In this document: one piece after another, positions 11,426 to 63,540 of the stretch
Numbering within the stretch: the first letter of the stretch is position 1
Layout of the letters: every line of letters starts with the position of its first letter
Program-made: the position numbers and the translations under genes
The notes under the pieces: model-generated
Seen by the model: only the letters and a program-made list of their open reading frames with translations
The model's database searches: none
Told to the model about the DNA's origin: nothing
Assembly: GCA_030710605.1 (NCBI GenBank)
Contig: CP092886.1
Span: 164,589,302-164,653,301, forward strand
Source: Cordylochernes scorpioides
Lineage: Eukaryota; Arthropoda; Arachnida; Pseudoscorpiones; Chernetidae
Direction of reading: 5' to 3'
DNA length: 64,000 nucleotides

Positions 11426-11429
11426 ATTT

Positions 11430-17522: not shown

Positions 17523-17894
17523 TCGTTAACTTTTATAATACAATATAATATAATGCGGCTTGTGATTGTAAAACGACATTTGAAAATTACCCCGCATGTG
17601 TTTCTTTTCAACGAAAAATCAAAATTTATTTTAAGGAGAAATAACGATTATTTCTAACCTTAGTGATGAGGTATGAAAGGATGAATTTTGAAGAGTAATG
17701 ATAAACGGAAAATTCCCATTCCTGGACACTTTTATTTTTCCGTTTATCATTACTCTTCACAATTCATCCTTTCATACCTCATCCCTAAGGTTAGAAATAA
17801 TCGTTATTTCTCTTTAAAATAAATTTTGATTTTTCGTTGAAAAGAAACACATGCGGGATAATTTTCAAATGTCGTTTTATAATCGTTAACTTTT
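17523..17894 (-). mobile_element. foldback SINE with 12-bp target duplication
   Basis: Two inverted arms of about 140 bp meet at a centre (17708-17735) that contains ATTCCCATTCCTGGACAC, the 3' end of a tRNA-like head. The tail (inverse: CAATCACAAGCCGCATTAT) is on the left, so the element is in minus orientation. TCGTTAACTTTT occurs at 17523-17534 and again at 17883-17894, a direct repeat of the length typical for LINE-mobilised insertions. Confidence 0.75.
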
Positions 17895-20095: not shown

Positions 20096-20400
20096 TGAAC
20101 TTATATGAAAATTTTTCCGTGAGGTAATTAATCCATTAAAGCAAAGGTCGCCTCTTCCATCAAAATAAGCGTCAAAGCCGTCACTGCAAACTAGCGGCCT
20201 CGGGTTGGAGACAAAGCCACAACACCTACTTTGGCAAACTAAGAAGCGTCCACCTAGAGACTGTGGTTTCGGACTATAACCCTCTTCAGCCATTAGTCTC
20301 CAGTTGGACGCTTCTCAGTTTGCCAAAGCTAGTGTTGTAGCTTTGTCATCGACCCGAGACCGCTAGTTTGCGGCGACAGTCAATATATAGAGGCGACCGT
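20096..20400 (-). mobile_element. family B hammerhead element, foldback form
   Basis: Left part (GCAAACTAGCGGCCTCGGGT, then CACAACACC, TTTGGCAAACT) matches the 41 kb family B element. After the ribozyme at 20253-20290 the sequence returns as an inverted copy (GGACGCTTCTCAGTTTGCC ... GACCGCTAGTTTGC). No ORF. Confidence 0.7.
20253..20290 (-). ncRNA. hammerhead ribozyme, family B copy 1 (stem I disrupted)
   Basis: On the minus strand: CTGAAGA (20289-20283, allowed by CUGANGA), stem II GGG/TCC, GAAAC (20270-20266), four bases, GTC (20261-20259). The core is intact. The 5' strand of stem I was replaced at the foldback junction, so helix I no longer forms well. Confidence 0.6.
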
Positions 20401-22189: not shown

Positions 22190-23395
22190 ACCGATGATAA
22201 GATATGAGGATTTGTTCATGGCCATTAACTAACTTTGTGCTAGATAAAACACGACGCCAATCACAAGCGCTACGAGGATTCGTTCATGACCATTAATTAA
22301 CTTTGTGCTAGATAACACAACGCCGATTACAATCTATAAGGATTCATTCATGACTATTTATTAAATTTGTGCTAGATAAATCACGACACCGAGGTCGCAA
22401 GTTACGAAGATTCATTCATGACCATTAATTTACTTTTTGCTATATAATACAACGCCGATTACAAGCTATAAAGATTCATTCTTGACTATTGATTAAATTT
22501 GTGCTAGATAAATCAGGACGCCGAGGTCGCAAGTTACGAGGATTCATTCATGACCATTAATTTACTTTGTGCTAGATAACACAACGCCGATTACAAACTA
22601 TAAGGATTCATTCATGACTATTAATTAACTTTGTGCGATAAATCACAACGCCGAGGTCGCAAGTTACGAAGATTCATTCATGAGCATTAATTTACTTTGT
22701 GTTAGATATCATACAGCGCAGATCGCAAGCTATAAGGATTCATTCATGACTATTAATTAACTTTGTGCTAGATAAAACACGACGCCAATCCCAAGCGCTA
22801 TAAGGATTCATTCATGAGCATTAATTAACTTTGTGCTAGATAACACACAGCGCCGATCACAGGCTATGAGGATTCATTCATGAGCATTAATTAACTTTGT
22901 GCTAGATATCATACAGCGCCGATCGCAAGCTATGAATATTCATTCATGAACATTAATTAACTTTGTGCTAGATAACACACAGCGCCGATCACAGGCTATG
23001 AGGATTCATTCATGAGCATTAATTAACTTTGTGCTAGATATCATACAGCGCCGATCGCAAGCTATGAAGATTCATTCATGACCATTAATTAACTTTGTGC
23101 TAGATAACACACAGCGCCGATCACAAGCTAAGAGGATTCATTCATAAGCATTAATTAACTTTGTGCTAGATAAAACACAGCGTCGAGATCGAAAGCTATG
23201 AGTATTCATTCATGTGCATTAATCAACTTTGTGCTGCATAACACAGAGCGCCGATCACACGCTATGAGGATTCTCATTCTGAGACGATCTTTAAGCCTTG
23301 TGATAGATAACACACTACACCGATGATAAGCTATGGATACTCATTTATGAACAATCATTTAAATCGTGATGAATAACACAATTGAAAATGTAAAC
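22190..23395. repeat. satellite array, about 66-bp unit, about 18 copies
   Basis: GATTCATTCATGA, TAATTAACTTTGTGCTAGAT and a variable ACACAGCGCCGATC segment repeat throughout. In 22320-22700 two unit types alternate (one with ACCGAGGTCGCAAGTTACG), a partial higher-order pattern. Units at both ends are degraded. Confidence 0.9.
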
Positions 23396-24457: not shown

Positions 24458-24628
24458 TGATACATTTTGAATGATAGAATGTAAATTTTATTTTGTTTAA
24501 CTAAATGGTGTATGTAAATTTTGTTTTGTTTAAAAAGATTTGAGGAAAATAAAGAGATGATTATTGAAGTGGAGACGGCCACAAACGACTGCTAATTCTT
24601 TTCACACATCTAGAATAGAATTATATCA
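24458..24628 (+). repeat. 5' LTR of Ty3/gypsy element, 171 bp
   Basis: Begins TGATACATTTTG and ends ATTATATCA. It reads identical to the 3' LTR at 29091-29261, which implies a recent insertion. A 4-bp TATA flanks both outer edges, though the site is TA-rich. AATAAA lies within it. The sequence right after the LTR does not start with the usual TGG of a tRNA primer site. Confidence 0.9.
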
Positions 24629-25403
24629 GCTAGTCGACAGGATCGCTGCCTACGGGAATAAATTCGAAATGACATCGAAGAAAGACTTGAAAACTTTACA
24701 GAAAGAAGAGGTTGTTACCGGAGCGAGAGTAGACAGTTCAATTAAAGAAATCTTGCCGATTTTCAACCCGGATACAGGCCTTACGTATCAAGAATGGCGA
24801 AATATTTTTGAAAGAACAGTCAAACTTCAAAATATTTCAGAAAATGATGCTCTAACGATGATTCCAAGCATCTTTAAGGGAAAAGCGTTAGAGATATACG
24901 CCTCGATGTGCCAGGATGTGTTCACGTTGGATGAACTTCACCAAGCTATGAATACATTTTTCCCGGTATCGACCAGTGGATTGATGAGGCAGTTTTGGAC
25001 TGAAAAGAAGCTACCATCGCAACCCCTTATGGACTACTACTTTAATAAACTGAAGTTGGCAAAAATATTGAATATAAGTTCGGAGCAGACCCTGGAAGCG
25101 CTTTCTTCGAATGTAAACGCAAAGCTGAGACCATTTTTGATCGCTGCCAATCCGGCTAATCTGGACCTGTGGATTAAGATTGCATCCTCCCTGGAAGAAG
25201 GATTTCGACAGGAAGAGACATCTTCACCCTTTAATGGCCCCAGATATCGACGGGACTTTCAAAATGTCGACTCAAGGAATGCAACGCCTTCACAGGATTC
25301 TCTTCCTTCAGGTGCCCGCCCCGGCAGAGAGGTTGGCGACCGGCAAGAAACCCGGCAAAAGCAGTTTTACCAAGACTTTCGAGGTAATGTAGGGCAACAT
25401 TGA
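24564..25403 (+). CDS. gag: Gag-like protein of Ty3/gypsy retrotransposon
   Basis: The open frame of 279 codons begins at an ATG inside the 5' LTR. A second ATG at 24669 (residue 36) lies outside the LTR and is the more usual kind of start. The middle resembles retrotransposon capsid: EWRNIFERTVKL (about residues 85-96), GKALEIYASM (about 111-120), LDELHQAMNTFFP, then FWTEKKLPSQPLMDYYF. These fit the all-helical Gag capsid common to gypsy elements. No complete CCHC zinc knuckle is seen. The frame stops at TGA 25401-25403, and pol continues in exactly the same frame. So Gag-Pol would need stop-codon readthrough, or the stop is a mutation. Confidence 0.8.
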   Translation: MKWRRPQTTANSFHTSRIELYQLVDRIAAYGNKFEMTSKKDLKTLQKEEVVTGARVDSSIKEILPIFNPDTGLTYQEWRNIFERTVKLQNISENDALTMIPSIFKGKALEIYASMCQDVFTLDELHQAMNTFFPVSTSGLMRQFWTEKKLPSQPLMDYYFNKLKLAKILNISSEQTLEALSSNVNAKLRPFLIAANPANLDLWIKIASSLEEGFRQEETSSPFNGPRYRRDFQNVDSRNATPSQDSLPSGARPGREVGDRQETRQKQFYQDFRGNVGQH

Positions 25404-25415
25404 TGGTGCCCAGGA

Positions 25416-28400
25416 GTGATGAGCGACGTTGGGGTAGATTCATTGCTCTTGGGAACCTATTTAGTACTCTTTGATTCCGGCAGTGACATTAATATTATTT
25501 CAGTACACCTATTACCTGAATGCCTTTTAGATAAGATAAATAACTCTAGCCAACAACACACAAACACACCTAATATAATTAGCACTGTATCTAACCGTAT
25601 TGGAATATTTGGACACATTTGTTTAACGATCAGAATTGGAGATATAACTAACAATATGTTATTCTATATTATTGATAATCCAAATTTGAATTTTCTGATA
25701 GTATCCACTAAGTACCTGAAATATTTTAACCTAAAGATTGATTTTGATGAGAATGTTATTATGCAAAATAATGTGTTTTTATCCAAATTTCAATATACAT
25801 TTTCTAAAGATGAACTCAATGCTTTGCAATATTGTGATAACTCAAAAAAATATTTTGGTGTTTCTAATAATGTTAAATATTGTAAAAAACATAATTATTG
25901 TTTAAAACTTTCAGGAAAATGCAATCACATAAAAAAGTTACCTCTTTTAGATAAAACTATTGATCAATATAACATAAATGTCCCCTCTTGTTTTAAATCT
26001 AAACTCGTTTACCAACCAAACTTTCGACCCTTACCCTTGCCAAATCTAGAAGACAGCTATCTAAATAATGATGACAAACTTAAGAATAATTTCTACATTT
26101 TATTAAATCGCTATAATGATATTTCTGGTGAAAACAAGTATAATATCAGACCATTAAAAGTAGATCCCCCCAGGTTAAGACTCAAAGATAAAACTCCTGT
26201 TTGTCTCAGACCTTATCGACATAATCCCAGGGACACCGAAATAATTAAGGAACAAATTAGGCAATTATTAAAATATGGGATTATTAGGCATGCTTCTTCT
26301 CCATATAGTTCGCCAGTAACTTTAGCACATAAAAAGGGAGAAAATTATAAATCTAGACTATGTATCGACTTTAGGAAATTGAATTCAAAATTGATAGGAG
26401 ATAGTTTCCCAATTCCTTTAGTTGAAAATATCATCCAAAAGGTGCAAGGCTCAAAAGTATTCTCGTGCCTTGATATTCTAAGTGCATACTGGACTATTGG
26501 TTTACATGAAAAAGATCAACCTATTACTTGCTTTACCACCACAGAAGGCTCTTACCAATGGTGCAGATTACCATTTGGATTGCGGACAGCTCCTGCTATT
26601 TTTAACAGGATCCTCACTTCCATATTGCAGAAATATGAACTTAAAAATATTATATCTTACTTTGACGATATATTGGTTTTCTCAAAAGATACCGAATCCC
26701 ATTTAGAACACCTTGGGGAAATATTTGCAATCCTACAAGAGGAAGGTATCCAACTTAGGAAAGACAAATGTTTGTTTTTTATGCAAAAGATAAATTATTT
26801 GGGTTACGAAATTTTTGGAGATCAAATCTCTCCTTCAAGTACTAATGTTGGTATAATTAAATCTTTGCCCCCTCCTCGTGATGTTAGATGCTTAAGGTCA
26901 TTTTTGGGCAGCGTTACGCATTATGCAAAATTTATAGATAATTTTAATAAGTTGAGAGCGCCTTTAAATGATCTATTGAAAAAAGATGTAAAATTCACGT
27001 GGAGTGAAGAGTGTCAGAGGAGTTTTGAAGCCCTTAAAGAAGCATTAGTTTCGAAACCAATACTCCAAATTTATAATCCATTGTTAGCTACACATATCTT
27101 TTGCGACGCTAGTATTTCAGGTTTAGGAGGCGTACTTAAACAGGAGTATCCTGATGGCACCTTAAGACCCATAGCGTTTTATAGTAGGGCTTTAAGGGGA
27201 GCAGAATCCAAGTATACAATAACAGAACTTGAATTATTGGCGATAATAGAAACATGTAAAAGATATCATCCCTATATTTCAGGTCAACATGTGATAGTTC
27301 ATACCGACCATAAGGCATTAATTTGGTTAAATAATTTCAAACATACTAACGGTAGATTATTCCGATGGGCGCTAAAATTATCAGAATATGATTTGGAATT
27401 TAAATATAATAAGGGATGTGAGAATCATGAAGCCGACATGTTGTCTCGACTGCCATATACCTGCTTCTTAACTGTTCAAAATATAGAACAAGAACAAAAA
27501 TCATTACTTAAGCCTTCATCTAAACTATATTTCATTAAAAACGGTATTACTTATATTAGGCTAAAAATTAGAGATAGGATTATAGTACCACCCTCCTTAC
27601 AACAACAATTGATAAGCAGGGCTCACGAAAGTTTAGGACACCCAGGCATAAGTTCAATGGCTAGAGTTATCTCAACTCAATATTATTTCAAAGGAATGAT
27701 AGGACAAATAAAAAATTATATTTTGAAATGTAAAATATGTCAGTCTGTAAAGAAGCCAACTACACCTTCGTATGGACTCATGGGTAATTTACCACTAGCT
27801 GAGAAACCATTTGATGTAGTTGCCCTTGACAGTATTTCAGGATTAGGGGATTATAACAGTACAAAAAATTGTCTTCATGTGATAGTTGATCATCACTCAA
27901 GATACATCTGGGCTTATCCTTCTAAGAGTACGTCTATAGCAACGTACATCAATATAATAAATCAGTTATTAAATGTAGGTAAACCAAAAATTATCGTTAC
28001 TGATAGGCACCCCTCATTTGTGTCCCAAAGGTTTAACAAATTTCTACAAGAAAAGGGCATAAAACACGTGATGACATCCCCTTCGCACCCACAGTGTAAT
28101 GGGCTTGTAGAGAGGGCGAATGCGACAATTATCTCAAAGCTTAGACTTCACCATCAACAAAATCCCAGAATACCATGGCCCAAATTATTACAAAAGGCCT
28201 TAGAAGAATATCGGAGTATTCCTCATTCCATAACTAAAATGCCTCCCGTTTATTTACTTTTTGGCATAACGCCATCATATATCAATAAATTAACAATAGC
28301 ATATCCACCCATAGAAGAGGCTAGGAAAATTGCAACTGAAAATACCGAAAAATTACATCTTAAATTGGTAAAAAGATATAATGAATCCCATAAAACGCCT

Positions 28401-28889
28401 AATCTAAAAATAGGGGATAAGGTCCTTTATAAGATCCCTTACCAATCAGGTCAAGGTAAGCTCATGCCAGCCTTTTATCCAGAACCATACACCATAATTT
28501 CCATACCCTCACCACAAACCATAGAAATAGATAAGCCTTGCCAACCCGAAAATAAGCATGCAACAATAGTTAATATTTCTAAAGTAAAGCTCTGGGATCC
28601 GGTAACTGAAGACAATACTGAACCACCATTCCCATTTCAGGAAGAAGAGGATTTGGAGGGATGCTTGGGTATCGAACCTAACAAGCAAGCTTCCACCGAT
28701 AGTCCTCAGGTTTTATTCTCTTCCATTAAAGAAAAAAAAATCCAGATCACCCCACAGAGCCCCTGGAGAAACTACTGCCGGTTTCGGGAAAATAACAAAA
28801 AAAAGTTGCCCTGGAATGGGATTCTACATGGAGAGTGTCTCCATAGACATGTAATGTCCATATCATTTTTTTTCCCTGCCTATTGTTAG
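25416..28889 (+). CDS. pol: Pol polyprotein (PR-RT-RH-IN) of Ty3/gypsy retrotransposon
   Basis: 1157 codons without a stop; the first ATG is at 25419, but the frame is continuous with gag across a single TGA. Aspartic protease: LFDSGSDINII (about residues 18-28). Reverse transcriptase: LRPYRHNPRD (about 265), SRLCIDFRKLN (about 312), LPFGLRTAPAIFNRIL, catalytic YFDD (about 415). RNase H: FCDASISGLGG (about 560), TELELLAI (about 604), HTDHKALIW (about 629). Integrase: zinc finger HESLGH...CKICQSVK (about 736-775), then catalytic D (about 805), D in VTDRHPSF (about 861) and E in LVERAN (about 897), spaced DD35E. All catalytic residues are present, so the enzymes look functional. The C-terminal 60 residues are lysine- and serine-rich with no recognised domain. 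Confidence 0.95.
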   Translation: MMSDVGVDSLLLGTYLVLFDSGSDINIISVHLLPECLLDKINNSSQQHTNTPNIISTVSNRIGIFGHICLTIRIGDITNNMLFYIIDNPNLNFLIVSTKYLKYFNLKIDFDENVIMQNNVFLSKFQYTFSKDELNALQYCDNSKKYFGVSNNVKYCKKHNYCLKLSGKCNHIKKLPLLDKTIDQYNINVPSCFKSKLVYQPNFRPLPLPNLEDSYLNNDDKLKNNFYILLNRYNDISGENKYNIRPLKVDPPRLRLKDKTPVCLRPYRHNPRDTEIIKEQIRQLLKYGIIRHASSPYSSPVTLAHKKGENYKSRLCIDFRKLNSKLIGDSFPIPLVENIIQKVQGSKVFSCLDILSAYWTIGLHEKDQPITCFTTTEGSYQWCRLPFGLRTAPAIFNRILTSILQKYELKNIISYFDDILVFSKDTESHLEHLGEIFAILQEEGIQLRKDKCLFFMQKINYLGYEIFGDQISPSSTNVGIIKSLPPPRDVRCLRSFLGSVTHYAKFIDNFNKLRAPLNDLLKKDVKFTWSEECQRSFEALKEALVSKPILQIYNPLLATHIFCDASISGLGGVLKQEYPDGTLRPIAFYSRALRGAESKYTITELELLAIIETCKRYHPYISGQHVIVHTDHKALIWLNNFKHTNGRLFRWALKLSEYDLEFKYNKGCENHEADMLSRLPYTCFLTVQNIEQEQKSLLKPSSKLYFIKNGITYIRLKIRDRIIVPPSLQQQLISRAHESLGHPGISSMARVISTQYYFKGMIGQIKNYILKCKICQSVKKPTTPSYGLMGNLPLAEKPFDVVALDSISGLGDYNSTKNCLHVIVDHHSRYIWAYPSKSTSIATYINIINQLLNVGKPKIIVTDRHPSFVSQRFNKFLQEKGIKHVMTSPSHPQCNGLVERANATIISKLRLHHQQNPRIPWPKLLQKALEEYRSIPHSITKMPPVYLLFGITPSYINKLTIAYPPIEEARKIATENTEKLHLKLVKRYNESHKTPNLKIGDKVLYKIPYQSGQGKLMPAFYPEPYTIISIPSPQTIEIDKPCQPENKHATIVNISKVKLWDPVTEDNTEPPFPFQEEEDLEGCLGIEPNKQASTDSPQVLFSSIKEKKIQITPQSPWRNYCRFRENNKKKLPWNGILHGECLHRHVMSISFFFPAYC

Positions 28890-29079
28890 TTAGGTTTTGT
28901 ATGGCCACCTTTTCCTGTGATTTTCCCCAACTAACAGGCTTTGGTCGCCTTTTTTTACCTCTAACAATATGGTTACTTGTGTAATATAATTTTTTGCAAT
29001 GTATCTTATCCTTTACCTTCCATCCCCTCCCAACCTCCGTTGAGAAAAAAATTAATACAATTTTTTTTTTTTTTTTTTT

Positions 29080-29090
29080 GTGGGGGGTAG
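29080..29090 (+). promoter_or_regulatory. polypurine tract of the gypsy element
   Basis: A G-rich run (GTGGGGGGTAG) lies immediately upstream of the 3' LTR, after a poly-T stretch, the expected position of the plus-strand primer. Confidence 0.7.
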
Positions 29091-29261
29091 TGATACATTT
29101 TGAATGATAGAATGTAAATTTTATTTTGTTTAACTAAATGGTGTATGTAAATTTTGTTTTGTTTAAAAAGATTTGAGGAAAATAAAGAGATGATTATTGA
29201 AGTGGAGACGGCCACAAACGACTGCTAATTCTTTTCACACATCTAGAATAGAATTATATCA
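29091..29261 (+). repeat. 3' LTR of Ty3/gypsy element, 171 bp
   Basis: Reads the same as the 5' LTR over its full length (TGATACATTTTG ... ATTATATCA). No difference was found by eye. Confidence 0.9.
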
Positions 29262-30269: not shown

Positions 30270-31817
30270 ATGGCTAAATGGCTTCACTTCTCCCTATTTG
30301 CTTTTGTAGCTTTTCTTATAAAAAAATATTAGAACTTAGAATTAAGCTTTGCTTTTTTATATACATGTTTGTTACACATTTAGCAATATATATACCAAAA
30401 TATTTTTTTGAATACTTACCTCTTTTAGTGAATTTTTGTCAGGGGGGCTGCAAAAGTGCCGTACTTATGCAGTATTTTGATGCTTTTCCTGTGAAAAGGA
30501 TAATGAAATTTAAAATTAAGCTTTGCTTTTTTATATACATGTTATTTACACATTTAGCAATATATACACAGAAATATTTTTGGAATATTTAACTTTTTTG
30601 GTGAATTTTTGTCAGGGAAGCTATGGACTGCCGTAATCATGCGGCTGCAAAAGTGCCGTACTTATGCAGTATTTTGATGCTTTTCCTGTGAAAAGGATAA
30701 TGAAATTTAAAATTAAGCTTTGCTTTTTTATATACATGTTATTTACACATTTAGCAATATATACACAGAAATATTTTTGGAATATTTAACTTTTTTGGTG
30801 AATTTTTGTCAGGGAAGCTATGGACTGCCGTAATCATGCATTATGTTGATGTTCTTCTCATAAAAAAAATATTTGGGTTTGGAATTGGGCTTTGCTTTTT
30901 TGTATACATGTTTTTTACATATTTAGAGCAATTTACACACAGAAAAATTTTGGAATATTTAACTTTCTTGGTGAATTTTTGTCAGGGAAGCTATGGACTG
31001 CCGTAATCATGCGGCTGCAAAAGTGCCGTACTTATGCAGTATTTTGATGCTTTTCCTGTGAAAAGGATAATGAAATTTAAAATTAAGCTTTGCTTTTTTA
31101 TATACATGTTATTTACACATTTAGCAATATATACACAGAAATATTTTTGGAATATTTAACTTTTTTGGTGAATTTTTGTCAGGGAAGCTATGGACTGCCG
31201 TAATCATGCATTATGTTGATGTTCTTCTCATAAAAAAATATTTGGGTTTGGAATTGGGCTTTGCTTTTTGTATACATGTTTTTTACATATTTAGCAATTT
31301 ACACACAGAAATATTTTGGAATATTTAACTTTCTTGGTGAATTTTTGTCAGGGAAGCTATGGACTGCCGTAATCATGCGGCTGCAAAAGTGCCGTACTTA
31401 TGCAGTATTTTGATGCTTTTCCTGTGAAAAGGATAATGAAATTTAAAATTAAGCTTTGCTTTTTTATATACATGTTATTTACACATTTAGCAATATATAC
31501 ACAGAAATATTTTTGGAATATTTAACTTTTTTGGTGAATTTTTGTCAGGGAAGCTATGGACTGCCGTAATCATGCATTATGTTGATGTTCTTCTCATAAA
31601 AAAAATATTTGGGTTTGGAATTGGGCTTTGCTTTTTTGTATACATGTTTTTTACATATTTAGCAATTTACACACAGAAAAATTTTGGAATATTTTACTTT
31701 CTTGGTGAATTTTTGTCAGGGAAGCTATGGACTGCCGTAATCATGCAATATGTTGATGTTCTTCTCATAAAAAAAATATTTGGGTTTAGAATTGGGCTTT
31801 GCTTTTTTATATACATA
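30270..31817 (+). repeat. dimeric tandem repeat, about 367-bp higher-order unit
   Basis: GTCAGGGAAGCTATGG occurs at 30612, 30807, 30985, 31178, 31347, 31544 and 31717, with alternating spacing of about 195 and about 173 bases. The long monomer carries GCGGCTGCAAAAGTGCCG; the short one carries ATTATGTTGATGTTCTTC. Both contain AAGCTTTG. The array is cut at 31817 by the inverted Helitron end. Confidence 0.85.
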
Positions 31818-35437: not shown

Positions 35438-36143
35438 TAAATTACTTGAAAACAAAACAATTTTCCGTTCAGTTGTATGCCGAGGAATATGGCGTCTCCA
35501 GTCTTTTTAAAAAAAAAGACTATGATGATTGGGCCATCTGGCAAGATGTGTAATTGGTTCAACAATTGTTATAAAAAAGACTTAAAGTTTGTGAAAACGA
35601 TTTACGTTACAAAAGAAAAATTGTTAAGTAAACTGAAATTGATCATTACTTCTAATTTCAAAGTTAACACCTACTCACATATTCTCATGTCCAGCAATGG
35701 CCCGCAGCCTTGCAGAAAATGGACATAGACCCAGAGCAGCAGCTTTACACACCCAAGATAGTGGATATTGCTGCTGCTGTGATGGAGATGCATGGAGACA
35801 TCTGAGGCTCTTCTTTGGACACGACAACAACAACAATTGCAAAGTAGTAGAGGCAATGGATGCACCAGAGAACCAAGATAATTAGTTCAGTAAAAAAATC
35901 CCATTCTTCAGCATTTCATCCAACTCCCAAGGAGGAATGGAGTGATCACATGATGAAGGCCTTGACCCGTTTAACCGGATTACATGCGAACAATATTTTA
36001 TGTATGAAAAGCACTATAAATGTGAATATTTTTATTGAAGTGAAATCCTATGACGCAGGTAGGACACGCAAGAATGTGTCAATTAGCAAACACGTGGGAC
36101 GCTCGTGTTGTTTTAACGAGCGATTCATCGTTTTTAGAAATGT
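35438..36143. other. unassigned, moderately GC-rich
   Basis: A short plus-strand frame from ATG 35719 (MDIDPEQQLYTPKIVD...) has a coding feel but stops after about 28 codons. CAACAACAACAA simple repeat at about 35825. I recognise no family. Confidence 0.3.
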
Positions 36144-36662
36144 TCACATGTCCGCGTTTAAATAGTTGTTGAGACACTTTAATTTACAAAGATGTAAAAG
36201 ATGCTAAGTACAAAATAATTGAATCAATCAGTGTGAAAACTCCGAAGTGTGAAGAATACAAAGCTACCGTTCACATGTCCGCGTTTAAATAGTTGTTGAG
36301 ACACTTTAATTTACAAAGATGTAAAAGATGCTAAGTACAAAATAATTGAATGAATCACTCAGTGTGAAAACTCCGATGTGTGAAGAATACAAAGTTATCG
36401 TTCACATGTGCGCATCTAAATAGTTGTTGAGAGACTTTAATTTACAAAGATGTAAAAGATGCTAAGTACAAAATAATTGAATGAATCAATCAGTGTGAAA
36501 ACTCCGAAGTGTGAAGAATACAAAGCTATCGTTCACATGTCCGCGTCTAAATAGTTGTTGAGAGACTTTAATTTACAAAGATGTAAAAGATGCTAAGTAC
36601 AAAATAATTGAATTAATCAACTGTGAAAACTCCGAAGTGTGAAGAATACAAAGCTACCGTGA
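36144..36662. repeat. tandem repeat, about 127-131 bp unit, four copies
   Basis: CACATGTCCGCGT recurs at 36145, 36272, 36403 and 36534, followed each time by AAATAGTTGTTGAGA and ATGTAAAAGATGCTAAGTAC. Copies are almost identical. Confidence 0.9.
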
Positions 36663-36982: not shown

Positions 36983-37733
36983 GTATATCAATTAAGAAGG
37001 ATCAGAAGATGAGTTTCTTTTATTGTATGAATGCTACGAGCTTTCGGGCAAAAGCCCTTCGACAGGCAAAAATATAACTATACTAAGAAAGATAACGATT
37101 TATATATGTTAATCTTAACAGAAGACCGTTTTTTGAGAAAAGTAAATATTAAATCTGCAGTCTGAAACCACGAGACGGCGCGTGGTTTGGGCTATTGAAA
37201 TAAACAATTGGGAGGTTTAAATGTAGTTTGTGTAGGCTGCGGGGATGTCAATTTTTCTATTTATGCTGTGTAGCTTGGATGAAACTATGGATTCCAGAAC
37301 CAATCTCTGATGTAGGTTGGAGATATTTTTGTAGTGAATAGTTCTTCTGGCCATTCCTTTGACACTGCTAACCCAACTATTCACTACAAAAATATCTCCA
37401 ACCTACACCAGAGATTGGTTCTGGAATCCATAGTTTCATCCAAGCTACACAGCATAAATAGAAAAATTGACATCCCCGCAGCCTACACAAACTACATTTA
37501 AACCTCCCACATGTTTATTTCAATAGCCCAAACCACGCGCCGTCTCGTGGTTTCAGACTGCAGATTTAATATTTACTTTTCTCAAAAAACGGTCTTCTGT
37601 TAAGATTAACATATATAAATCGTTATCTTTCTTAGTATAGTTATATTTTTGCCTGTCGAAGGGCTTTTGCCCGAAAGCTCGTAGCATTCATACAATAAAA
37701 GAAACTCATCTTCTGATCCTTCTTAATTGATAT
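36983..37733. repeat. long near-perfect palindrome, about 360-bp arms, with family C motif
   Basis: The left arm starts TATCAATTAAGAAGGATC and the right arm ends with its inverse. The spacer is about 20 bases (near 37352-37372). Each arm contains the family C motif CTGTCGAAGGGC-TTTT-GCCCGAAAGC. Only a few mismatches were seen, for example CAATTGGG versus CCCACATG. Confidence 0.85.
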
Positions 37734-41004: not shown

Positions 41005-41230
41005 TATTCGATAAAGATAAAGATCGCCTCTCTCGTCAAAATAGATGTCAAAGCTAGACGCCATCTATTGACCGTCGCCGCAAACTAGCGGCCTCGGGTC
41101 GGTGACAAAGCCACAACACCAGCTTTGGCAAACTGAAAAGCGTCCACCTAGAGACCATGGTTTCAGGCTAATGGCCCTCGTCAGCCTAGGGCGGACTTTA
41201 TTCCATTAGATCCCTTGTGGATATTTCAGA
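41005..41230 (-). mobile_element. family B hammerhead element
   Basis: Shares GCAAACTAGCGGCCTCGGGT, CACAACACC and GCGTCCACCTAGAGAC with the 20 kb element. It contains one intact ribozyme (41147-41190). Its left edge cuts into a family M MITE. No ORF. Confidence 0.7.
41147..41190 (-). ncRNA. hammerhead ribozyme, type I, family B copy 2 (intact)
   Basis: Minus strand: stem I CCTAGG with TCTAGG (six pairs, one of them G-T), core CTGACGA (41184-41178), stem II GGGC/GCCT around CATTA, GAAAC (41164-41160), cleavage triplet GTC (41155-41153). Stem III is ACC-AT-GGT, again self-complementary, so a dimer could form a stronger helix. All invariant positions fit. Confidence 0.88.
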
Positions 41231-44858: not shown

Positions 44859-46278
44859 CACTGCGTGACATTGAAAATGGAACACCAAGAAATAGTGGCC
44901 AGAAAGTGATGAAACTCGGCAGACAGAGAGAGACAGGGACGAACAATAAGTGATCTTTATTTCAAAATGATAGTCATAATACAGAGCGAGAACGGCGTCG
45001 GCTTAGTAGCAAGTAGGACCACCGCGGACGGCGATGCACGCAGCAACACGTCTAGGTAGAGAGTCAATCAGAGTACGGATGGCGTCCTGAGGGATGGCTC
45101 TCCATTCCCTCTCAACCATTTGCCACAGTTCGTCTTCTGAACGCGGCTGTGGCAAGGCATGCAAACGGCGTCCAATGATGTCCTAGACGTGCTCGATTGG
45201 TGAGAGATCAGGAGAGTATGGTGGCCAGGGAAGCATCTGTACATCTTGCAGAGCTTGTTGGCTAATGCGAGCAGTGTGCGGTCGGGCGTTATCCTGCTGA
45301 TAAAGGGCATTGGGTACCCCCTGAAGGTAGGGGAGTGTCACCGGTCGCAGCACATCATCAACGTATCGTTGGGGCCGTCATAGTGCCCTGAATACGAAGT
45401 AAAGGTGACCTGGAATCATACGCGATTGCGCCCCAAACCATGATTCCACGTTGTCGCACGGTGGGGCGTTCCACAATTGCTGCCGGATTGGACCTTTCTC
45501 CACGTCGACGCCACACGCGTACACGGCGACTATCACTGGACAAGCAGAAACGCGACTCATCTGAGAACACGACCCTGTGTCATTCCGTCATCCACGTCGA
45601 TCTAGCCCGGCACCATTCCAAACGTTGGCGCCTATTCGGTGGGGTCAATGGCAGTCTTCTTAGCGGACGGCATGAGTGCAAGCCATTAGCAACCAATCGA
45701 CGGGAAATGGTTCTGGTCGAGTTGGAATGATCTAGGGTGTCTTGCACATGTTGCAGGATGGCGGTACAAGTGGCTTGTGGGGCCGCCACTGCTTGTCGAA
45801 GGATACGCCGATCCACACGTGCTGACGTCACTCTGGTTGCACCGACATTCCTATAAATTGCCACATTTCCTTGTTCCAACCATCTTCTCCACAGTCGGTG
45901 CACCGTGGACGCACCAAGGTGTGTATCAGCTGCGATTTGACGTATGGACCAACCTGCCCTTTTCAGTCCGATCACCATGCCCCTCGTAAAAGCGTCTGTC
46001 TGCTTGAACTGCCTCCGTTTACGATGACCTGGCATTCTCTGTTATTACTCGTGTCTTTTGACACAAGAACAAAATTTCTACAATGATTTTCCTTGAAGAA
46101 ATAACGACACGAATACTGTCCTTTCTGCAAGTTCCTTCCCTTATATCTTACTCCATGTGCGCACGAGGGCTGCGCATTTTACATCATTTGCATAACTCGG
46201 TTAGGCGCGTCTACCCTGAAATTTGCATAATTTTCTGGCCACTATTTCTTGGTGTTCCATTTTCAATGTCACGCAGTG
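44859..46278 (-). mobile_element. Tc1-like DNA transposon, 1420 bp, full length
   Basis: Perfect terminal inverted repeats of about 47 bp start CACTGCGTGACATTG at both ends. TA target duplications flank at 44857-44858 and 46279-46280. The length is typical of Tc1. It encodes one broken transposase on the minus strand. Confidence 0.92.
45003..46035 (-). pseudogene. Tc1 transposase (DDE), inactivated
   Basis: The N-terminal part (from ATG 46035) has the paired-like helix-turn-helix typical of Tc1: GMVIGLKRAGWSIRQIA, then STVHRLWRRW. The catalytic part has the first D in FSDESRF (about 45560), MVWGAI, the second D in QQDNARPHT (about 45285) and the E in SPDLSPIEHV (about 45200). The frame is broken by a TGA at about 45578-45580, a frameshift near 45355 and a TAG at about 45190, where Trp codons are expected at the two stops. 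The C-terminus ends with RGGPTCY. It could not make an active protein. Intact inverted repeats mean the copy could still be moved by an enzyme from elsewhere. Confidence 0.9.
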
Positions 46279-46716: not shown

Positions 46717-46735
46717 ATATATATATATGAGAAAA

Positions 46736-46890
46736 CGATAGAGAGAAGAAAAAATAAATAAAAATATCAGGTGTTGATATTTAAAATAAATAAGGCATAT
46801 CCTGACCAAAGGCACATGTACCTTTTAGATGGCAGAGCTTTGATGTGCTTTTGGTCAGGATAGGCCTTATTTATTTTTAATATATTTATG
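46736..46890. mobile_element. family A foldback remnant without ribozyme
   Basis: ATCAGGTGTTGATATT, GGCATATCCTGACC, GATGGCAGAGC, then the inverse GGTCAGGATAGGCC. Related to the 8 kb unit. Confidence 0.5.
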
Positions 46891-49940: not shown

Positions 49941-50835
49941 AGATTAAGTCGATTGGATACCTCATCACATTTTTAGTCGACAGGATTATACAAGAGTCAA
50001 CAGGACCTCATCACATATATTATTATATATATAAAATTACTTTGTATGTATATCGATTATAACTGTAGCTATATCTCTGTGATATGATACTGAGATTTCA
50101 GGCGTTGTATTACAAACGAAATGAGCTAAAGGATGGTAGCGAAAAAATAGATCAGAAGCGATAACAGCAGCAAAAGGATATATTTCATAAAAGTAAATTA
50201 AATATTTTTTAAACAATATTTTATTCCCCACAAATACCAATTCCCAAAATGAGTATATATAATCAAGGCGCTATATATTATTATTTCTGCCATTATTTAG
50301 TGAAACCTTTATGAATTAGATATGATCTGAAATAACGCGAAAACAAATCAATAATGCGTTGCTTGCCTCGAGGTGTTGGTTAGACATTGATTTAGACAAC
50401 CAGACGATCATAAATATTAATCCCTCCGTCTGCATTAAAGGTTATCGATTTAGGACAATTTAATCCTATTTACGTGTCACGAGCAAATTTGTCCTTTTTA
50501 TATCTATTTTATTTAGAAAATTACTGCATTCAATTAACGTTATTCGATTTTAGAATGTTGATCGACTTCGATATATTAAAGACATTTAAAATCGTTAACT
50601 AATTTTTAATTAATATATTTGTGTCACAGGTGGGTAACTGAGTTTCTAGGTTTCACACATAGATGGCGACACATGTAGTTGACATCCATGTGTAACGGTG
50701 TGTTTCTGGCTGGACATCTAGCAACAATAACCAGTCATAATACCAACATGTACTTAAAGAAAAAAGTTTTAGCAAAGAAATCGAGTTTTGTATGGGGAAA
50801 AGGATAAACAGCATGTGTGAGAAGCTTTGCTTTTG
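49941..50835. other. no gene seen
   Basis: Nothing supported. Frame 50653-50874 is short and runs into the satellite. Confidence 0.4.
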
Positions 50836-51960
50836 ATATAGAACTTGAGGAAATAAACCTACCTTAACTGCCAAGGTTTTTTAATATTAAAGTGGAATTT
50901 GATATAGAACTTGAGGAAATAAACCTACCTTAACTGCCAAGGTTTTTTAATATTAAAGTGGAATTTGATATAGAACTTGAGGAAATAAACCTACCTTAAC
51001 TGCCAAGGTTTTTTAATATTAACGTGGTATTTGATATAGAACTTGAGGAAATAAACCTAGCTTTACTGCTTATATTAACTCTCTAACGTGGTATTTGATA
51101 TAGAACTTGAGGAAATAAACCTAGCTTTACTGCCAAGGTTAACTCTAACGTGGTATTTGATATAGAACTTGAGGAAATAAATATAGCTTTACTGTCAAGG
51201 TTAACCCTAACGTGGTATTTGATATAGAACTTGAGGAAATAAACCTAGCTTTACAGCCTAGGTTAACCCTAACGTGGTATTTGATATAGAACTTGAGGAA
51301 ATAAACCTAGCTTTACAGCCTAGGATAACTCTAACGTGGTATTTGATATAGAACTTGAGGAAATAAACCTAGCTTTACAGCCTAGGTTAACTCTAACGTG
51401 GTATTTGATATAGAACTTGAGGAAATAAACCTAGCTTTACTGTCAAGGTTAACCCTAACGTGGTATTTGATATAGAACTTGAGGAAATAAACCTAGCTTT
51501 ACTGTCAAGGTTAACCCTAACGTGGTATTTGATATAGAACTTGAGGAAATAAACCTAGCTTTACTGTCAAGGTTAACTCTAACGTGGTAGTTGATATAAC
51601 TTGAAGAAACAAACCTAGCTTAACTGCCAAGGTTAACCCTAACGTGGTATTTGATATAGAACTTGAGGAAATAAACCTAGCTCTACTGCCTATATTAACT
51701 CTAACGTGGTATTTGATATAGAACTTGAGGAAATAAAAACCTAGCTTTACTGTCAAGGTTAACTCTAAAGTGGTATTTGATATAAAACTTTAGGAAATAA
51801 ACCTAGCTTTACAGCCAAGGTTAACTCTAACGTGGTATTTGATATAAAAATTGATGAAATAAACCTAGCTTTGCTGTAGAAGTTAACTCTAACGAGGTAT
51901 TTGATATAGAACTTGAGGAAACAAAAACCTATCTTAACTGCCAAGGTTAACCCTAACCGA
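50836..51960. repeat. satellite array, about 62-bp unit, about 18 copies
   Basis: GATATAGAACTTGAGG recurs at about 62-base steps (for example 51159 and 51221), with CTAGCTTTACTG and GTTAACTCTAACGTGGTATT between. The first three units are a diverged subtype (TTTTTTAATATTAAAGTGG). Confidence 0.9.
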
Positions 51961-56904: not shown

Positions 56905-57190
56905 TATTTTAAATAATAATAAAATAGGCATTTCCTGACCGTGCTCACATAAGCTTTTTAAAATAGCAGAGCGCCATCTAGTGGAACAGAAATCAATTAA
57001 ACGTTGATTTAACCTATTTCCTCTGAATTTTGGCCAACCCATTTTCTTGACAAATCAAGAAAAGCCAACCACGAACGCGTTTCGGGCTGTTGGCCCTCCT
57101 CAGCGTGGTGCAGGCTGTACCTCTACGACCAAAAAATCTTTTGGTCCCAGAGTCTTCTTGAGAAATCAATATATGGGTATATAATGCACA
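56905..57190 (-). mobile_element. family A element, diverged subfamily
   Basis: Blocks GGCATTTCCTGACCGTG, AGCGCCATCTAGTGG, AACGTTGATTTAACC and CAAATCAAGAAAAGCC precede the ribozyme. GACCAAAAAATCTTTTGGTC follows. It is closest to the 8 kb unit. It lies directly next to the 57.2 kb array in the same orientation. Confidence 0.7.
57068..57109 (-). ncRNA. hammerhead ribozyme, type I, family A copy 3
   Basis: Minus strand: stem I ACCACG/CGTGGT (six pairs), CTGAGGA (57103-57097, allowed), stem II GGGC/GCCC with loop CAACA, GAAAC, GTT (57076-57074). The core is intact. Confidence 0.85.
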
Positions 57191-57353
57191 CACACATATA
57201 TATATGAAAAAAGAAAAAGGCATCTCCTTATCGTGCAACTGAAAGTTGCTGATGGCTGAGCGCCATCTATCGGAATAAATATCAACTATTCTCGTTGATT
57301 TTTTTATTCCATAATTGGCCAAATACCCATTCTTGATTAATCAAGAAAAGCTA

Positions 57354-57395
57354 ACCACGGACGCGTTTCGGGCTGTTGGCCCTCATCAGCGTGGT
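57354..57395 (-). ncRNA. hammerhead ribozyme, type I, family A copy 4 (intact)
   Basis: Minus strand: stem I ACCACG/CGTGGT, CTGATGA, stem II GGGC/GCCC with loop CAACA, GAAAC, then GTC (57362-57360), the most common hammerhead cleavage triplet. Stem III ACGCGT is self-complementary. Confidence 0.9.
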
Positions 57396-57701
57396 GCAAG
57401 CTGTACCTCAAAGACCAAAAAAAAAATTGGTCATTAAGGCATCCTGAAAAATCATGAAACGGGTAGTTAAGGCCAGAATTGCGTGAGGACTCTACACAAT
57501 GTGAAAAAATAGTACAAATGTAACATTGTACTGGGATAAGGTGCATAAATCATGAAAAAAGAAAAAGGCATCTCCTTATCGTGCAACTGAAAGTTGCTGA
57601 TGGCTGAGCGCCATCTATCGGAATAAATATCAACTATTCTCGTTGATTTTTTTATTCCATAATTGGCCAAATACCCATTCTTGATTAATCAAGAAAAGCT
57701 A

Positions 57702-57743
57702 ACCACGGACGCGTTTCGGGCTGTTGGCCCTCATCAGCGTGGT
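57702..57743 (-). ncRNA. hammerhead ribozyme, type I, family A copy 5 (intact)
   Basis: Identical to the copy at 57354-57395; GTC at 57710-57708, 348 bases from it. Confidence 0.9.
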
Positions 57744-58015
57744 GCAAGCTGTACCTCAAAGACCAAAAAAAAAAAAAAAATTGGTCATTAAGGCATCCTG
57801 AAAAATCATGAAACGGGTAGTTAAGGCCAGAATTGCGTGAGGACTCTACACAATGTGAAAAAATAGTACAAATGTAACATTGTACTGGGATAAGGTGCAT
57901 AAATCATGAAAAAAGAAAAAGGCATCACGCAATTCTGGCCTTAACTACCCGTTTCATGATTTTTCAGGATGCCTTAATGACCAATTTTTTTTTTGGTCTT
58001 TGAGGTACAGCTTGC

Positions 58016-58057
58016 ACCACGCTGATGAGGGCCAACAGCCCGAAACGCGTCCGTGGT
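58016..58057 (+). ncRNA. hammerhead ribozyme, type I, family A copy 6 (intact)
   Basis: Plus strand: ACCACG (58016-58021), CTGATGA (58022-58028), GGGC-CAACA-GCCC (58029-58041), GAAAC (58042-58046), GTC (58049-58051), CGTGGT (58052-58057). Confidence 0.9.
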
Positions 58058-58367
58058 TAGCTTTTCTTGATTAATCAAGAATGGGTATTTGGCCAATTAT
58101 GGAATAAAAAAAAAAATCAACGAGAATAGTTGATATTTATTCCGATAGATGGCGCTCAGCCATCAGCAACTTTCAGTTGCACGATAAGGAGATGCCTTTT
58201 TCTTTTTTCATGATTTATGCACCTTATCCCAGTACAATGTTACATTTGTACTATTTTTTCACATTGTGTAGAGTCCTCACGCAATTCTGGCCTTAACTAC
58301 CCGTTTCATGATTTTTCAGGATGCCTTAATGACCAATTTTTTTTTTGGTCTTTGAGGTACAGCTTGC

Positions 58368-58409
58368 ACCACGCTGATGAGGGCCAACAGCCCGAAACGC
58401 GTCCGTGGT
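58368..58409 (+). ncRNA. hammerhead ribozyme, type I, family A copy 7 (intact)
   Basis: Same sequence as the previous copy; GTC at 58401-58403, 352 bases downstream of the previous cleavage site. Confidence 0.9.
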
Positions 58410-58734
58410 TAGCTTTTCTTGATTAATCAAGAATGGGTATTTGGCCAATTATGGAATAAAAAAATCAACGAGAATAGTTGATATTTATTCCGATAGATGG
58501 CGCTCAGCCATCAGCAACTTTCAGTTGCACGATAAGGAGATGCCTTTTTCTTTTTTCATGATTTATGCACCTTATCCCAGTACAATGTTACATTTGTACT
58601 ATTTTTTCACATATATATATATAGATATATAAAATATATGTGTGTGTTTGTGTGTGTTGATATAACATATATTATATAAAGTGTTTTGCTTTGTTGTTTG
58701 TTTTTCTCTTTGGACAATTTTCTTTAGTTAATTT

Positions 58735-60139: not shown

Positions 60140-60480
60140 TTATCAGGGATGAGGTATGAAAGGATGAATTGTGGATAGTAATGATAAACGGAAAAAAATA
60201 CGTCCAGGGTAGCCTAGTGGACATGGCACCTGCTCGGTAAGCAGAAGGTTGTGGGTTCGATTCCCGCCCCTGGACACTTTTATTTTTCCGTTCGCCATTA
60301 CTCTTCACATTTTCACCCTTTCATACGTCATTCAATCATATATAGACCATTACTCTTCATATATTCAACCTTTTCATACGTCATCCAAAAAGTTAGAAAT
60401 AGTACATATTTCTCTTTAAAATTAATGTTAATTTTTCACAAAAAAGAAACTTATGCGAGGAGGCTTTAAGTATTACTTTA
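60140..60480 (+). mobile_element. foldback SINE retaining its tRNA-like head
   Basis: The left arm (GATGAGGTATGAAAGGATG ... AAACGGAAAAAAATA) is an inverse of the body that follows the tRNA-like segment (TTTTTCCGTT ... CCTTTCATACGTCA). The body then continues to the AAGAAACTTATGCGAGG block. Compared with the 17.5 and 59.2 kb copies, it keeps the full tRNA-like region. Confidence 0.65.
60203..60275 (+). tRNA. tRNA-like sequence (SINE head), threonine-type GGT anticodon if read as tRNA
   Basis: It folds as a cloverleaf. The acceptor TCCAGGG/CCCTGGA has seven pairs. TA lies at positions 8-9. The D stem is GCC/GGC. The anticodon stem CTGC/GCAG (four good pairs) encloses loop TCGGTAA. The T stem GTGGG/CCCGC encloses loop TTCGATT. 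The base before the anticodon is C, not the invariant T33, and the sequence sits in the centre of a foldback SINE. It is therefore more likely a SINE promoter than a working tRNA gene. Confidence 0.55.
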
Positions 60481-61540: not shown

Positions 61541-61644
61541 AGATGACTTTTCTTAATTTATTCACTGTTCCTAGCACAATTTCTTTTTATACTATTTTTT
61601 CGTATATGTTTTTGTTCTAACGTACTTCTGGCCTAAAAAAGAAG

Positions 61645-61717
61645 TCGGTGGACGAGTGGGTAACACCCTCGATTCCCGACAGCCATGAACCGGGATCGAA
61701 TCCCGCGTTAACATTTT
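61645..61717 (+). repeat. tRNA-like SINE head
   Basis: GGACGAGTGGGTAACACC resembles an A box and GGGATCGAATCCC a B box, in tRNA order and spacing. Pairing of a full cloverleaf is incomplete. Confidence 0.5.
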
Positions 61718-61892
61718 GTTTAATATATGAATAACCTTCACGTATTATTCATCTTTGCAAATATCATAAACTAGATTGCTCTTGTTGAGCGGTACCTAAT
61801 AAAGTGATTTTGGAACTAGGAACTTTGGCCTCTTAAATACTCAATCCTTGATCTTTCAGGAAGCCTCTAGGATCAGTCTTTTTAGAGTCTCT

Positions 61893-61938
61893 ACCTCGCT
61901 GACGAGGGCCAACAGCTTGAAACGCTTACGTGTGTGGT
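61893..61938 (+). ncRNA. decayed hammerhead ribozyme, family A
   Basis: CTGACGA (61899-61905), GGGC-CAACA-GCTT, GAAAC (61919-61923), GC, TTA. Stem II keeps two G-T pairs, but stem I and the triplet pairing are damaged. Confidence 0.6.
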
Positions 61939-61990
61939 TGTCTCTTCTTTATTTATAAAGTAAGGGGTCTGTCCAATATTCTGGAATAAG

Positions 61991-63540
61991 TAATATTCAA
62001 CGATTATAGTTGTTAACTGAGAATGTTCGGTCACATACCGCTACAATTCTGCTAACATCTTTAGCCAAAAACATTATACTAATACTTCAGCAACCGTCTT
62101 AGTCTCCAGACATGACTCCAAACGATATTATCCTCTTTCCAGAACTCAAAATAACTTTATAAGGAAGTAGATTCAACAGTACAGAGGACACCATAGCGGA
62201 AATAGTACTGAAGAATATCCCAAAATAAGACTTTTGTAATGTTTAGAATCATGGGAGAAACGATGACAATTATTGTTTAGATGCGGGAAGGGAGCATTTA
62301 AAAAATATTATAATAAGCCCTTTTTTTGAAAAGCCAAAGAGGAAAACTTTTTACCACATTCTGCAAATTTATTGGAAACATCTTGTAATATGATTCCGAT
62401 TACAATCGCGGAGACTCAATTTTTTTTTTTCGATAAAAGAAGAATTGAAACAAGAATCAACTTCGCGTTTTATATTTAGCGAAAGAGATCTAATAAAAAA
62501 ATAGTTTAATCCTCAAAACGTGAGTAATGTTTGCAATATAAGACGACACTATTTTCGAAGCTGACTATAGATTTCGGGTTTGTATGAACATTGCTCAGAG
62601 AGAAAAAGAGACATTTTTATTAAATGTGACGGCGCATTTTAGATGTTATACGTTTTTTTTATGATATTTTAACACCCACACAGGCGTAACGTATATCTAT
62701 ATCATGATAACTATTCAAATATAAAGCATAAGATATATTCACATTGGAAACAAAAAGTAGTTAACGTGCTGCGCAAATTCAGTTTTATAAGAAATAATCT
62801 CGGAAATGTACTATTTTCGTGAAATATTGTAATGCTAATAGTACAATTATTGTTTTCAGACGCTGAAATGATATCAAGTTGTGGGAATGAAAACTCCAAT
62901 TTTTCAGCACAAATTTAGTCTACATTTTCTTATACAGAATGTTATATTCGTATGAAAATAATCCTAAATCACGTTTTACGTTTTAGATACATTTTACTTC
63001 GTTTCCTGTGGGAGTTGGAAAAAGAATTTCGACACATATATATTTTAGGATTTTTATAAATATCATCTCTATAAAATAGCGCTTTTGTCTTAGATAAATA
63101 CACAGAGTTGTGCCAAAAAACTTACAAAACCTTATGTAATTTTCCTTTCAAATCAGTAATCGAATGTTTAAACAGAATATTTTTCCGAACTAGGTTTCAA
63201 TTAAGATGCTTCAAACGCGCGATTTTTTAAATAGAATATAACTTGCAAAACAATTTATCAAATAATGTATTTCTTATTGTTTTTTGAATATAAGAAAAAA
63301 GTTTTTCTTTAAAACGCTATAGTTTTATGGTTAAAGTTCGTACTTTCGCAAGAAATTTCTCAATAGTTCACATTTAAAAAAAAGGATAATTAAAAAGTAT
63401 AATCACTCAGCCGTTTTGAGAGATATCATTTTTATATATTATTCCCACACTTAATACTAAAATTTTTATGATGGAAATTATTAATAATGATTTTTTTTAT
63501 CAAAAAAATATAATAGAAGCGCTTATATGACTTCTTTCAA
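61991..63540. other. no gene seen
   Basis: Long AT-rich stretch; short frames only. No repeats shared with the rest of the window were recognised. Confidence 0.4.

Follow-up and report, generated by a model that had tools for sequence, protein, structure and literature searches.

The 64,000-nucleotide stretch of the genome of the pseudoscorpion Cordylochernes scorpioides analysed here (contig CP092886.1, positions 164,589,302 to 164,653,301; "the window" below) carries at 57204–58612 an element with four hammerhead ribozymes. It is probably a recent insertion of an animal retrozyme of the type without long terminal repeats (non-LTR), mobilised by the machinery of Penelope-like elements (PLEs) with its two strands primed at two fixed sites of the RNA. 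The sequence supports its assignment to the retrozymes, here a non-coding, non-autonomous retroelement of ~340–350 nt in which every monomer carries one type I hammerhead.

Architecture of the element and its ribozymes

The window locus is a head-to-head pair of arms, with two tandem monomers per strand, that meet 5′-to-5′. This geometry is its most informative feature and was missed by the first-pass annotation, which had described a head-to-tail array of monomers of about 350 bp. The head-to-tail order is correct within each arm, where the measured period is 348–354 bp, but not for the locus as a whole, in which two copies lie on the minus strand and two on the plus strand; a single continuous head-to-tail array was rejected for this reason. 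The features of the locus, delimited for the arms by BLAST and exact mapping, are listed below. Unit positions refer to a 352-nt unit whose position 1 is the first base past the cleavage site, and R1 is a covariance model built from five window copies.

57204–57926, minus strand: left arm, two tandem monomers, 2.05 laps of the unit; its outer 3′ end is tail-less, at unit position 160 (site S)
57925–58612, plus strand: right arm, two tandem monomers, 1.95 laps of the unit; its outer 3′ end is tailed, at unit position 213 (site T)
57925–57926: 5′-to-5′ arm junction, a 2-bp overlap that joins unit position 140 to 226
58560–58612, plus strand: tail of 53 nt, unit positions about 161–213, at the outer end of the right arm only
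57345–57406, minus strand: hammerhead 1, exact 30-nt core 57360–57389, predicted cleavage after 57360; 87.2 bits with R1, 26.5 bits with Rfam HH9
57693–57754, minus strand: hammerhead 2, exact 30-nt core 57708–57737, predicted cleavage after 57708; found with R1 and Rfam HH9
58005–58066, plus strand: hammerhead 3, exact 30-nt core 58022–58051, predicted cleavage after 58051; found with R1 and Rfam HH9
58357–58418, plus strand: hammerhead 4, exact 30-nt core 58374–58403, predicted cleavage after 58403; found with R1 and Rfam HH9

The four monomers are identical once homopolymers are compressed; the lengths of their A and T tracts vary. AT repeats adjoin both outer ends of the element. The left and right flanks are unlike each other, so that the inversion stops at the element, and an assembly fold-back at this locus was rejected on the same ground. 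The unit has a GC content of 38.9% and is non-coding, as first annotated: the longest stop-to-stop frame overlapping the array has 108 amino acids (57017–57340) and lies mostly inside a neighbouring older copy (locus F, see below), and a string scan detected no reverse transcriptase (RT)-type or GIY-YIG-type string in the frames that overlap the array. Folded as a circle, the unit has a predicted energy of −112.7 kcal/mol (z −7.8 against 100 shuffles) with 63% of it paired.

The pattern CTGATGA-N(8-30)-GAAAC has four matches in the window, all within 57204–58612, where 0.18 are expected and 0 of 100 shuffles reach four; the viral contigs in which the ribozyme pattern was searched gave no match. 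The four hammerheads are identical and of type I, with stem I open and the core rules kept. Stem I has six pairs followed by a TGC/T internal loop and four distal pairs, stem II has four pairs closed by the 5-nt loop CAACA, and the cleavage triplet is GUC, which confirms the four consensus hammerheads and their helices as originally read. The cleavage positions given at that time stand on the plus strand (58051 and 58403) and shift by one on the minus strand, where 57361 and 57709 had been named and the last base before predicted cleavage is 57360 and 57708. Helix III is reduced to an A-U and a C-G pair around the 2-nt loop GC, which makes these minimal-helix-III hammerheads. The internal loop of stem I and loop II are the places where a canonical, as opposed to minimal, hammerhead would have its loop 1–loop 2 tertiary contact. 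As its sequence ACGCGU is palindromic, two RNAs could pair into a shared helix III of 6 bp. Rfam HH9 matches each of the four copies with 26.5 bits (E 8e-4 in 2.2 kb).

Genomic copies and their outer ends

The exact 30-nt ribozyme occurs 9,777 times (4,936 + 4,841) in the 2.62-Gb genome (24 contigs), and a reversed control 0 times. The first 100 exact matches listed, found in the first 42.4 Mb of contig C1, form 79 loci whose arms were mapped to the retrozyme unit; old copies of less than 85% identity score poorly with this unit. By component, 41 loci are head-to-head, 37 are single-orientation, 1 is complex and 0 are purely tail-to-tail. Outer ends were scored in wide bins (S 145–172, T 198–222). 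Among the 41 head-to-head loci, 20 have S on the left and T on the right, 19 have the reverse order, two (L065 and L066) have one unscorable end and none is symmetric. One end is at S (near 153) and the other at T (near 213), ~60 nt apart, in each of the 39 fully scored loci, an outcome whose probability is about 2e-12 if arms picked S or T independently and equally. The ends are more precise than the bins: S falls at 150–156 in 37 of 40 cases and T at 207–215 in 36 of 40. S ends beyond 150–160 are found in two of the 40 (L019, L028) and T ends beyond 207–215 in four of the 40 (L029, L048, L062, L084).

Few structures fall outside this rule. The complex locus L032 holds one pair of neighbours in plus-then-minus order. 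At L033:1787–2334 a symmetric S/S arm pair, not in the scored set, forms a palindrome that extends into its host flanks; it is an inverted duplication or an assembly fold-back, not an insertion. Loci L009–L011 are three copies of one composite in which arms ending at 149 and 150 surround ~250 bp of other sequence; they were scored as single-orientation, are not independent and are among the few symmetric structures seen. When neighbouring minus and plus arms, both at least 85% identical, were scored pair by pair, 36 pairs were S/T, one was S/S (L033), five had one unscorable end and one was tail-to-tail.

Flanks were analysed at the 37 simple loci by seeking a stretch shared between the 20 nt outside and 4 nt inside of each end. 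The first 20 flank bases are rich in A+T (87% on the S side and 84% on the T side, versus 66%), and an (AT)4 run is present within 24 nt in 17 of the 37 S flanks and 12 of the 37 T flanks, versus 2% of random 24-mers. A shared repeat of at least 10 bp (range 10–19 bp) was found in 26 of the 37 loci, versus 9.8% of 1,332 mispaired flanks. Non-repetitive shared repeats of at least 9 bp, such as CAGAGAGGAATACTA (L050) and TTAGGACTGATTT (L086), occur in eight loci, versus 8 of the 1,332 mispaired flanks, and reach 15 bp. Judged from these sequences, each two-armed structure would fit one insertion event with a target-site duplication (TSD). A poly-A end was found at neither S nor T in the 37 loci.

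The arms also inform on the template. More than one lap of the unit is present in 28 of the 116 scored arms, and L025 is an array of five hammerheads in register at 338 nt. Of the 37 arms for which an intact ribozyme had not been a selection criterion, 13 run across the cleavage site, 23 end before it and one stops there. Linear cleaved monomers would pile ends at that site, and the template was therefore more likely to be ligated circles or uncleaved multimers. The identity of the four window monomers would fit a single circle, without proving it.

Older copies of the element were located in the window by BLAST; the four diverged hammerheads among them were found with R1.

56914–57187, minus strand: locus F, older copy, single arm with its site S end read by eye; hammerhead at 57059–57120
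7775–8437: locus B, older head-to-head copy, minus arm 7775–8257 tailed, plus arm 8258–8437 tail-less
7965–8026, minus strand: hammerhead of locus B, compensatory changes in stem II and stem I
15542–15805: locus C, older head-to-head copy, left arm tailed, right arm tail-less; hammerhead not kept
15028–15175: locus H, old head-to-head copy, ends read by eye; hammerhead not kept
46727–46883: locus D, old head-to-head copy, left arm tailed, right arm tail-less; hammerhead not kept
4856–5100, minus strand: copy E, one arm only, with its end at site T; hammerhead at 5049–5110, stem I broken
61548–62015, plus strand: diverged interrupted copy; hammerhead at 61882–61943
13941–13983: older copy

Together with the element at 57204, the loci that begin at 7775, 15028, 15542 and 46727 make five two-armed loci in the window. 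The 3′ ends face outward in every one, and in all five one arm ends at S (~153–160) and the other at T (~213), as read by eye in the old copies. Loci D and H have a flanking repeat in common and are perhaps not fully independent of each other.

The changes in these copies and in the larger sample suggest selection on the ribozyme. Position N7, which is free, and position H17 vary in the older window hammerheads, and paired bases change in a compensatory way (GGGC/GCCC to GCGC/GCGC, AGCT/AGCT to AGCC/GGCT, A-U to U-A). All eight core substitutions in copies B, F and E obey the hammerhead rules (random chance per copy 0.016, 0.125 and 0.125), and in the fourth diverged copy (61899) one helix III pair is broken. 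R1 finds 132 hammerheads in the 79 loci. Over their 72 distinct rows the fraction of paired cells is 94.4%, and changes on both sides affect 36 cells, versus 6.7 in shuffles and 2–11 with slid structures, counts that lean on an alignment fitted to R1 and on loci picked for the exact core. Judged by these counts the ribozyme helices covary. Among copies off the exact 30-mer (up to 8 substitutions; 28 distinct forms in total), 9 of 24 distinct forms keep all hammerhead rules, versus 3.1 expected; since just nine do, many copies across the genome appear inactive.

Another family of repeats that carry a hammerhead, in this case one whose helix III is longer, is present at 20178–20388 (minus strand), 41063–41201 (minus strand) and L018:915–981. 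The 20178 copy is predicted to fold into a ~90-bp hairpin with a hammerhead-like core at its tip (z −21.75); the 41-kb copy has CCATGG in helix III, and its segment 41135–41201 is recognised by R1 (E 5e-9) and was not found by Rfam. The arms at 20178–20388 share their far 3′ end, one of them having an internal deletion, and this copy was not counted as support for the asymmetry of the tails.

Proposed insertion at two RNA sites and its alternatives

The outer ends of the retrozyme have a counterpart in a PLE-like copy of the same genome. L088:1287–3187 contains a GIY-YIG frame (PF01541) in a head-to-head pair of arms that are 874 nt long, with 4 mismatches between them, and is flanked by the 15-bp duplication ATATGGATTTATATT. 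A single arm has a tail, which is 25 nt long when counted up to the last stretch of complementarity and 30 nt long when counted up to the duplication's edge. The GIY-YIG domain and the geometry suggest the label PLE-like. A hammerhead-like string was seen by eye near its 3′ end and recovered by neither Rfam nor R1. L089:135–2556 (minus strand) is a degenerate PLE-like stretch, broken into several frames, with a GIY-YIG frame upstream of an RT-like frame that has a weak RVT_1 match (27.4 bits versus the curated cut-off of 29.6); this permuted order of domains is that of Naiad-type PLEs. GIY-YIG proteins are annotated in C. scorpioides (P0065–P0067). In a string scan of the 185 window frames of at least 60 amino acids no GIY-YIG pattern was found, and three frames have an RT-like xDD string, one of them being the gypsy-type pol described below. 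The unit, being non-coding, is not itself filed as a PLE, a class that has an open reading frame for RT and GIY-YIG. Its insertions behave as those of PLEs, with head-to-head arms, a tail on one of them, repeats in the flanks and AT-rich flanks; arms, tail and duplication are likewise found in L088. Adineta PLEs have head-to-head inverted pseudo-LTRs, one of which may carry a 31-bp tail at its 3′ end, their TSDs of 8–10 bp are absent from some insertions, and self-priming on an antisense template was proposed for them, according to the account given in PMC3846280. The purified Anolis PLE is described in PMC11167929 as cutting and extending both strands with a preference for AT-rich DNA; the tail lies between the two internal sites at which its reverse transcription begins.

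A model of the insertion would run as follows. Tandem genomic copies would be transcribed and the RNA cut to unit length by the hammerhead, probably as a dimer formed through the palindromic ACGCGU of helix III; the units would then be closed into circles, as known for other animal retrozymes. A Penelope-like enzyme (GIY-YIG endonuclease and RT) would act in trans and cut both strands of AT-rich DNA at positions about 10–15 bp apart, a stagger suggested by the flanking repeats. Each cut 3′ end would prime reverse transcription inside the RNA, at S (unit ~153–160) or at T (~213). The two end positions are those seen in the DNA, and the model has each site used once per insertion. The two cDNAs would be extended 5′-ward, often over the ribozyme junction and sometimes for more than one lap, and joined 5′-to-5′ in the way seen in the sequence. 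The insertion would thereby yield a head-to-head array in which just one arm carries a tail of ~60 nt.

More tentatively, and with less than even confidence, we suggest that both target strands may be primed on one circular RNA at two fixed sites ~60 nt apart, each usable once, or on two circles paired via helix III on the halves of a PLE dimer. One circle with once-only sites would explain the absence of S/S or T/T combinations in the 39 loci, the overlap of arms and the crossing of the ligated ribozyme junction. If this is true, two-site target-primed reverse transcription would be common to retrozymes and PLEs.

Priming at a single RNA site, the cDNA then folding back on itself and being copied, is an unlikely origin of the two arms. 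Such snap-back would find a precedent in the self-priming proposed for PLEs (PMC3846280), a quasi-palindrome at the inner junction of locus C would suit it, and it would permit the tailed arm to reach further 5′, as it does in 11 of the 37 simple loci. However, the tail-less arm extends further 5′ than the tailed one in the other 26 and therefore cannot be a copy of it, a tail-less arm of under one lap cannot template the tail, and the gap or overlap at the inner junction is at most 5 nt in 28 of the 37. Snap-back cDNA was rejected as a general explanation on the arm reach in the 26 loci.

Mobilisation by an RT of long interspersed elements (LINEs) seems to us slightly less likely again. In that case the head-to-head form would be ordinary L1-like twin priming, which likewise leaves the 5′ part of an element inverted and head-to-head with its directly oriented 3′ part. 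The length of some shared flank repeats, non-repetitive up to 15 bp, would agree with it, and locus L032 contains an RVT_1 fragment whose type is not assigned. L1 twin priming has a variable second priming site and gives arms without overlap, whereas the two end sites are constant across all 39 scored retrozyme loci and many arms overlap; twin priming was rejected because the second site is not variable. The lack of a poly-A end at either site and the presence of the same signature in the PLE-like L088 also argue against a LINE.

Recombination or an assembly artefact, which would make the order of the monomers that of a satellite or inverted duplication, is very improbable: the window is rich in palindromic repeats and the L033 palindrome takes in its host flanks, but TSD-consistent flank repeats, fixed outer ends and dispersal over thousands of sites point to insertion. 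Just as little weight is given to a foldback DNA transposon of the miniature inverted-repeat (MITE) type carrying a hammerhead by chance, which would share the short, palindromic-looking, non-coding structure with short direct repeats at AT-rich sites; its rejection follows from the unequal ends, which are not mutual inverted terminal repeats (~60 nt are extra on one arm); the arms of more than one lap, which suggest a circular or multimeric template, and the covarying helices also speak against it.

Several points weigh against a retrozyme moved by PLE machinery. Cleavage, circles and transcription are all predictions from DNA. In the Rfam search that the first-pass annotation had suggested, the four hammerheads match HH9 with a score below its gathering score of 52, which no hammerhead in the 64-kb window passes. 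The five window copies by themselves covary weakly, with 3 cells changed on both sides, a number reached by 39 of 500 shuffles. The 79-locus sample comes from one contig and was selected for an intact 30-nt ribozyme, and 37 of these loci appear one-armed. Inspection by eye shows a second, very short arm of complementary type in six of the 37 (two, L054 and L079, are marked by the script motif flag): short T-type ends adjoin S-type arms in L026, L042, L054, L058 and L068, and an S-type end adjoins a T-type arm in L079. On the side of the PLEs, no RT domain was identified in L088, the comparison of arms concerns this one copy of the two GIY-YIG loci met, and no intact autonomous PLE was identified among the loci examined. 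The tie between retrozyme and PLEs is one of insertion geometry, without demonstrated sequence homology between the unit and a PLE.

Other features of the window and comparison with known systems

An apparently young LTR retrotransposon of Ty3/gypsy type occupies 24458–29261; its terminal repeats of 171 bp are 100% identical and its pol frame of 1161 amino acids has RT, RNase H and integrase domains, preceded by a 280-amino-acid frame without Pfam match. A fragment of a Tc1-type transposase at 45580–46041 (minus strand) is 96% identical to a C. scorpioides protein and up to 77% to spider proteins. Long tandem arrays are found at 11429–12638 (106-bp unit), 22191–23273 (66/132 bp), 30336–31746 (370 bp), 36142–36660 (131 bp) and 50832–51957 (62 bp). 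Palindromic repeats, 82–96% self-complementary, lie at 36985–37733, 5425–5635, 6241–6455, 10575–10785, 13144–13350 and 17564–17884; some are multi-copy, and the left flanks of loci B, D and H sit within such repeats. A tRNA-Thr (GGT) gene was identified at 60203–60275 (plus strand) by ARAGORN (Rfam tRNA 56.6 bits).

The arachnid host is not new for retrozymes, as a tick retrozyme RNA was already shown (PMC4918200, in the part available). The Argas RNA, likened here by its description in that source, resembles the Cordylochernes unit in its arachnid host, type I hammerhead and predicted structured RNA; that part describes no architecture for its insertions. Plant LTR retrozymes, as presented in the same source, likewise have a hammerhead-bearing unit and a presumed circular RNA intermediate and are non-autonomous. 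They differ, according to the descriptions in PMC4918200 and PMC7229834, by type III hammerheads, larger units, LTRs with a primer-binding site and a polypurine tract, and a 4-bp TSD. The Cordylochernes family has type I hammerheads, units of ~340–350 nt and flank repeats of 10–19 bp.

The metazoan non-LTR retrozymes are the closest class. As characterised in the account of Cervera and de la Pena 2020 (PMC7229834), they have type I hammerheads in tandem non-coding monomers of 170–400 nt; amphibian hammerheads with a weak helix III, a trait shared by the C. scorpioides ribozymes, are reported there to act as dimers. The animal retrozyme-like class proposed by the first-pass annotation is upheld by the type I hammerhead, the low GC content, the highly self-paired predicted RNA, the lack of an RT gene in the unit and tandem non-coding monomers of 348–354 bp (338 bp in L025), where ~150–450 bp are expected of the class. 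It is further upheld by dispersal in thousands of copies with short direct repeats in the flanks, at least 10 bp long in 26 of 37 loci, where TSDs of the class exceed 4 bp when present. The family differs in being often head-to-head (41 of 79 loci) with fixed unequal ends, whereas tandem repeats alone figure in the available text of PMC7229834. In the literature searched, judged mainly from titles and abstracts, no report was found of retrozymes arranged head-to-head or having paired unequal ends.

The metazoan class and the involvement of PLEs are prior proposals: PLEs were named a strong candidate for moving metazoan retrozymes (PMC7229834), and retrozymes may rely on PLEs according to PMC8969392, as far as the accessible parts of both go. 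The enzyme that moves animal retrozymes is a standing question, and the S/T ends would tie their insertion to PLE chemistry. These paired ends give a sequence fingerprint legible in any assembled genome, the C. scorpioides genome offers thousands of natural copies, and an RNA of just ~340 nt would make the model of two-site priming testable in vitro.

The likeness to PLEs with pseudo-LTRs, as these are portrayed in the consulted portions of PMC3846280 and PMC11167929, extends to head-to-head arms, a tail on one arm, a short TSD in many insertions, AT-rich targets, two internal start sites of reverse transcription and the possession of hammerheads. The retrozyme unit differs in having neither an RT nor an endonuclease gene, and its one-arm tail is present in each of the 39 scored loci, whereas for the PLEs of PMC3846280 the tail is given as an optional feature.

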